From: a virus
Length of the DNA stretch: 64,000 bases
Strand: one strand, 5' to 3'
Virus record (IMG/VR): IMGVR_UViG_3300032241_002336
Span: 1-64,000 of that record
Below, piece after piece: positions 5,074 to 5,176 of this stretch (position 1 is its first letter; every line of letters begins with the position of its first letter). A program made the position numbers and the translations under genes. The notes beneath the pieces were generated by a model, which saw only the letters and a list, made by a program, of their open reading frames with translations, was not told the DNA's origin and did no database searches.

Positions 5074-5176
5074 TAGCGGGGGATGGAATTGCACCACCGA
5101 TCTCTTGGTTATTTTTTTAACGAATATTCTTATTCGTTTTCTTGAGCCAAGCGAGTTGCTACTTCTCTACCCCGCA
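5074..5176 (-). tRNA. tRNA-Met (CAU), initiator-like, with a 31-nt insertion in the anticodon loop
   Basis: Acceptor TGCGGGG pairs with CCCCGCT at six positions and leaves a U1-U72 mismatch, as in initiator tRNAs; the discriminator is A. The D arm is GAG/CTC. The anticodon stem CTTGG/CCAAG closes on CTCA ... TAA, which would be the normal loop CTCATAA (anticodon CAU). Between A and T lie 31 extra nt that form their own 7-bp hairpin, AACGAAT/ATTCGTT. The T stem is GGTGG/CCATC with a 7-nt loop. Removing the insertion leaves a normal 72-nt tRNA. The anticodon stem lacks the three G-C pairs typical of fMet tRNA, so the initiator label is tentative. No CCA is encoded. Confidence 0.75.

Follow-up and report, generated by a model that had tools for sequence, protein, structure and literature searches.

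An interrupted initiator-type tRNA gene and its surroundings

The window, a stretch of 64,000 nucleotides taken from an 81,655-base viral record (G000) that is itself an incomplete fragment, carries on its minus strand a tRNA gene whose anticodon triplet is broken by a 31-nt insert and whose cloverleaf is otherwise full. The parts of this gene, and the putative signals on either side of it, are the following.

5198..5225, minus strand: promoter-like site TTGACG-16-TATATT, 10/12 matches, just upstream of the tRNA
5074..5176, minus strand: interrupted initiator-type tRNA(CAT) gene, 103 nt (RF00005, 42.7 bits; ARAGORN in intron mode)
5143..5176, minus strand: 5' exon, comprising the acceptor 5' strand, D arm, anticodon stem 5' strand and CTCA (ARAGORN in intron mode; alignment with the uninterrupted L474 tRNA)
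5112..5142, minus strand: 31-nt insert AGAAAACGAATAAGAATATTCGTTAAAAAAA, with a shift of +/-1 base possible (missing from L474; single copy in the 81,655-base record)
5119..5138, minus strand: 8-bp hairpin with AGAA loop within the insert (predicted folds; shuffle P ~0.001)
5074..5111, minus strand: 3' exon, comprising TAA, anticodon stem 3' strand, variable loop, T arm, acceptor 3' strand and A73 (ARAGORN, Rfam, L474 alignment)
about 5010-4981, minus strand: probable terminator, an AT-rich hairpin ATCCTTTAA/TTAAAGGAT followed by nine T (read by eye)

Genes of this kind are overlooked by standard annotation: ARAGORN without introns and Rfam at its fast gathering setting both miss the window gene, and with ARAGORN defaults and fast Rfam filters the window yields no more than two tRNAs (3983-4054 and 5288-5358) and the tmRNA (6397-6742). 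In intron mode ARAGORN finds the tRNA with an intron of 31 nt, and with slower, permissive filters RF00005 aligns this same tRNA over the whole model (positions 1-71) and scores it at 42.7 bits, the cut-off being 29. Both results bear out the coordinates and anatomy given in an earlier note on this DNA, which had placed a tRNA-Met with a 31-nt insertion in its anticodon loop at 5074-5176. ARAGORN calls the molecule Leu(CAA) only because several placements of the cut are possible; the rest of it is tRNA-fMet. The earlier note had split the loop as CTCA...TAA, and the loop is indeed interrupted, with CTCA-31 nt-TAA (35/36) and CTC-31 nt-ATAA (34/35) as equally good cut points.

When the two exons (TGCGGGGTAGAGAAGTAGCAACTCGCTTGGCTCA and TAACCAAGAGATCGGTGGTGCAATTCCATCCCCCGCTA) are joined, the junction reads CGCTTGGCTCA/TAACCAAGAGATCGGTGG and the product is a 72-nt tRNA with a complete cloverleaf and the loop CTCATAA; CCA is not encoded and the 3' exon ends at A73. 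Positions 1 and 72 form no Watson-Crick pair (U1 and U72, read from the sequence), just as in an uninterrupted phage tRNA-Met, L474, and in the interrupted gene of a 385-kb phage, G001, and the molecule closely matches phage and bacterial tRNA-fMet. Judged by these two features, the gene is of the initiator type. At 29-31:39-41 the stem CTTGG/CCAAG has two G-C pairs rather than the three that typify initiators, as do the uninterrupted phage genes in LR745206, CcrSC and L474. The insert hairpin, AACGAATA-AGAA-TATTCGTT, has 8 pairs, not the 7 first reported, and is stronger than ~99.9% of shuffles of this short AT-rich insert; the fold that combines cloverleaf and hairpin lies 1.6 kcal/mol above the predicted minimum.

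The earlier note had also credited the gene with its own promoter and terminator, a claim that stands in part. Promoter-like sites are in total no more numerous in the region than in shuffled sequence, and a terminator tool reports none downstream of the tRNA, the hairpin at 4981-5010 being too AT-rich for its GC limit. Given the promoter-like site and the probable terminator, expression of the interrupted tRNA is nonetheless likely. The site at 5198..5225 also reads as the Bacteroidota form TTTG...TAnnTTTG (here TTTG...TATATTTG), a form that suggests a Bacteroidota host.

The neighborhood is a tRNA and protein-quality kit. It includes genes for a CCA-adding enzyme (757-1911), peptidyl-tRNA hydrolase 2, a nucleotide kinase, ClpP and DnaJ, together with a phage-encoded tmRNA (6397-6742, minus strand; tag VSEEELALA) that adjoins ClpP and lies near the DnaJ gene, and an amber-decoding tRNA(CTA) (3983-4054, minus strand). 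In-frame TAG is rare in the window and is still a stop in 7/49 long ORFs. An RNA-binding protein of phrog_850, which we take to be Ro60/TROVE-like, is encoded at 11047-12495. Next to the tRNA-Met at 5288-5358, between it and a promoter-like TTGACA-17-TATCTT, is a stretch of ~400 nt (5360-5790, minus strand) with no clear gene and no Rfam match above the curated cut-off, and TGCAGG upstream of that tRNA could pair with its 3' CCTGCA. A collection of named phages holds no DNA related to the window, and the neighboring kinase returns only one distant relative; these searches thus give the locus as a whole no close relative.

Uninterrupted alleles and recurrence in other phages

A pattern made from the joined window exons finds two uninterrupted phage genes. 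One of these, the L474 tRNA-Met, is identical to the joined exons at 67/72 positions, and since the match is this close, the 31 nt is, by this comparison, a clean insertion; the uninterrupted allele that the earlier note had proposed to look for in other phages thus exists. The second, L473, shows 62 identities over a 74-column alignment. Like the window tRNA, L474 has U1 opposite U72, A18 and G55, and because A18 and G55 occur in this uninterrupted gene we dropped the degenerate elbow as a sign of decay. The five differences between L474 and the window tRNA leave every arm paired, with positions 50 and 64 changing together and still pairing. Neither L474 nor L473 shares proteins with the window record in the short stretches compared; as these alleles were picked out by tRNA sequence, the tRNA may have been transferred horizontally.

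We searched for recurrence with patterns for tRNA-fMet with a long middle. The 385-kb phage G001 has a 23-nt insert in its initiator tRNA, the 11.7-kb contig L038 a 39-nt insert with two hairpins, and the 300-kb phage L169 a 34-nt insert with a long hairpin, all three compatible with 34/35 or 35/36. A 36-nt insert in L162 is cut at 36/37, and L167 has ~17 nt before the anticodon. Taking the insert out leaves exactly CTCATAA in all five of the window, G001, L038, L169 and L162 genes. In the joined tRNAs (n=5) 95/95 stem cells are paired, and at 8 pairs both partners change, a covariation that may predate the insertions. Two of the other genes have uninterrupted counterparts of their own: that of G001 lies in the 635-kb phage LR745206 within a similar tRNA array, and that of L169 in Caulobacter phage CcrSC.

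The exons and the inserts of these genes behave very differently. G001 holds the closest interrupted relative of the window gene, and the two exon sets are identical at 60/73 aligned positions, in phages that are only distantly related (37% identity for the CCA enzyme, 39% for DnaJ). The inserts of the same pair cannot be aligned, 60% of shuffles scoring as well, and the inserts of the five genes have no common sequence or splice signal. By shuffling, the insert hairpins of G001 and L162 are no stronger than chance. A mobile palindromic element or dispersed repeat was considered and rejected: each insert occurs once in its own genome, and the second-best match is no better than with shuffled queries.

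The interrupted pattern occurs in 0/395 Bacteroidota genomes, and on this count we rejected a host-type feature; the uninterrupted tRNA-fMet pattern occurs in 110/198. We base rarity in bacterial genomes on the 0/395 figure because the matches listed in a GTDB contig scan and in a scan for CTCA...TAA were mostly chance (GGCTCA upstream of normal genes, or in the D arm). Other candidates were also set aside: L005-L007 matched by chance, being normal tRNA-fMet genes or fragments, and L160/164, L163/166 and L165/168/170 have intact anticodon loops and long variable regions.

These comparisons bear on the idea, already among the options of the earlier note, that the gene is an inactive remnant, in which a chance insertion inactivated a dispensable phage tRNA whose decay is still to come. 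Phage tRNAs are often dispensable, the host supplies an initiator tRNA of its own, and the insert sequences are unrelated, all of which would suit such a relic. Against this, the inserts recur at one site in unrelated phages, the gene retains a separate transcription unit, and the remnant reading is weakened because the exon changes, those that separate the window tRNA from L474 among them, keep the arms paired. We judge it quite unlikely.

Fate of the insert

We propose that this phage initiator-type tRNA gene is functional and that its insert is a mini-intron removed from the transcript, and we would give this reading about an even chance of being right. It is favored because an uninterrupted allele exists, because the insertions fall at the same site in unrelated phages, because the exons are conserved and the inserts are not, and because the anticodon arm is restored exactly. 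An intron predicts just such a combination of constrained exons, free insert and exact restoration, and is most likely what these sequences reflect. We infer transcription, excision, ligation and a function in initiation, which would proceed as follows. The window tRNA gene would be transcribed alone, its 31-nt insert folding into a stem-loop that caps the anticodon arm. RNA-processing enzymes of host or phage origin would next cut the RNA at either edge of the insert and join the exons into a 72-nt tRNA with the anticodon loop CUCAUAA, to which the 3' CCA would be added, possibly by the phage CCA-adding enzyme. Splitting the anticodon could plausibly benefit the phage by keeping the precursor safe from host nucleases whose target is this loop of initiator tRNA.

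To our knowledge bacteria have no known way to splice out such an insert, so this would be an intron of a little-understood kind. Candidate joining enzymes are found in part of the set: G001 encodes T4-type RNA ligases (Rnl1 at 69.7 bits and a second ligase at 32.7 bits), and the L169 phage has three matches of this type. Searches for an RNA ligase found none in the L162 and L167 records or in the window's own record, an incomplete fragment, and RtcB was not found in G000, G001 or G002. These blanks weigh against the mini-intron, as do the lack of any sequence or splice signal common to the inserts, the chance-level hairpins of G001 and L162, the missing third G-C pair in the anticodon stem, the possibly older stem covariation and the possible horizontal transfer. 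Separately, ~300 bases upstream of its interrupted tRNA-fMet, L169 carries a bacterial class A RNase P RNA (10022-10397, 255 bits).

An alternative is that the insert is kept and the RNA serves as a stable, tRNA-shaped, non-decoding decoy or sponge, for example for initiator-tRNA nucleases or for the phage Ro60/TROVE-like protein. As a whole, the 103-nt RNA has a much better predicted fold than its shuffles (z -3.1), and the phrog_850 protein is encoded in the window itself. There are, moreover, tRNA-shaped phage genes in which the anticodon arm is extended and no anticodon can be restored (L241:1050-1155, L176). A published account of phage tRNAs (PMC10264068) cites host VapC toxins that cut tRNA-fMet and describes anticodon-loop changes that let phage tRNAs escape host nucleases, with no mention of insertions. 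A decoy, however, has no need to keep CTCA...TAA such that excision yields CTCATAA in every one of the five genes, nor to keep initiator features and pairing as the length and sequence of the insert vary freely. We regard the decoy as doubtful, yet it and the relic are the serious rivals of the mini-intron.

If the mini-intron is spliced, bacteria or their viruses would possess a new route of RNA processing, acting on introns of 23-39 nt that have neither a ribozyme core nor a bulge-helix-bulge, and phage tRNA genes would be linked to the arms race in which anticodon nucleases are involved.

Comparison with known tRNA introns

This kind of element is already known, since short tRNA introns, called enigmatic, were reported in Lak megaphages in 2019 (Devoto et al., 2019, PMC6784885); to the knowledge of those authors, no phage tRNA intron had been described before. 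That report discusses Thr and Tyr tRNAs, an intron that possibly itself encodes a tRNA, and introns identical across cohorts. As it describes them, the Lak elements resemble the window insert in being short inserts in phage tRNA genes with some copies lacking the insert (for the window, L474 is such a copy), in having no known splicing mechanism, and in their hosts, which are Prevotella (Bacteroidota), the promoter-like site in the window being of Bacteroidota type. In Lak-A1 we examined two tRNAs, of 101 and 104 nt, one of which (111254-111357) has a hairpin insert in the anticodon loop. Compared with the elements covered in that report, the window gene differs in that an initiator tRNA is split within its anticodon triplet and in that the insert differs in every phage. 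The mini-intron, one of the options of the earlier note, is thus favored by the evidence and is not wholly unprecedented. The initiator tRNA, the split anticodon and the recurrence appear new; the literature searched, which covered few subscription papers and hardly any preprints, held no report of interrupted phage initiator tRNAs. Splicing of the window insert would also place the Lak introns, so far unexplained, in a broader setting that can be tested.

Group I introns of bacterial tRNA-fMet likewise sit in the anticodon loop, as in two Nitrospirae genomes (L060:6828-7063 and L115:5796-6003, apparently at 33/34), and a remnant of such an intron could in principle occupy the window gene. Group I introns are, however, ~200 nt or more, with a catalytic core, a U before the 5' site and a terminal G, and the window insert is 31 nt with no RF00028 match, ends in A, and is flanked on its right by ATAA and not CATAA, such that no 33/34 placement is possible. 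Its size, its failure to match RF00028 and a cut position unlike that of the Nitrospirae introns led us to reject this origin as very improbable.

The introns that tRNA endonuclease cuts in archaea and eukaryotes are also short, lie in the anticodon loop and extend its arm. Their usual site is 37/38 and they form a bulge-helix-bulge, whereas the window insert lies at 34/35 or 35/36 and its folds show a wide internal loop (8 and 10 nt) with no central helix.

Other inserts in phage tRNA genes

We also scanned for class I tRNAs with long middles and, among the matches listed, parsed 56 other phage tRNA genes with long inserts. In 17 of these 56, excision restores a canonical anticodon arm, against 0.1 expected from shuffles, a result that counts in favor of the mini-intron. 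In many of the 56 listed genes, ~45 nt are inserted near 29/30, within the anticodon stem, as a hairpin followed by CnGCAA (family A). The hairpin and arm of family A covary strongly, with 88.8% of cells paired (63% in shuffles) and 47 double-changed cells (12 in shuffles), and Rfam gives only tRNA matches at these inserts, which look like a separate, structured family. Family A resembles the window insert in being short, in lying in phage tRNA genes and in leaving a perfect anticodon arm once excised; it differs in lying in the anticodon stem with a conserved hairpin and CnGCAA, neither of which the window insert, at 34/35 or 35/36, possesses. Its members span several isoacceptors (L204, L207, L210, L214, L219, L221, L240, L250, L292:2994-3103 and L293 at about 2000-2110) and include two isolates, Synechococcus phage BUCT-ZZ01, where the gene is unannotated, and Vibrio phage 6E35.1a, where the gene, with an insert different from that of the window, is annotated as pseudo tRNA-OTHER.

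Taken together with the initiator genes, these inserts may form a widespread class of very short phage tRNA introns (~20-50 nt), which would be spliced out in the course of infection by a process not known from bacteria. The class would comprise the anticodon-splitting initiator introns and the separate structured anticodon-stem family, and would perhaps shield tRNAs from anticodon nucleases until they mature. We advance this broader proposal tentatively, at somewhat less than even probability.

Other unusual phage tRNA genes turned up in the same searches. In L184, L212, L227, L230, L238, L243 and L247, tRNA-shaped genes have the anticodon arm replaced by a conserved element like CCCTCANGGTGAAGGNCCNAAACGCNGGG, and excision yields no canonical anticodon. 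The gene at L241:1050-1155, within a phage tRNA array, has a long hairpin where the anticodon loop would be. G001 (L041, L040), with more than 40 tRNA genes, encodes additional versions of several class I isoacceptors (Lys, Glu, Asn, Thr) that have a long variable arm, and has an element, TGATTRAAAGAGTTACTTCGTTT, common to two odd tRNA-like genes. Phage tRNAs in L338, L401 and L411 carry extra hairpins in the D loop.
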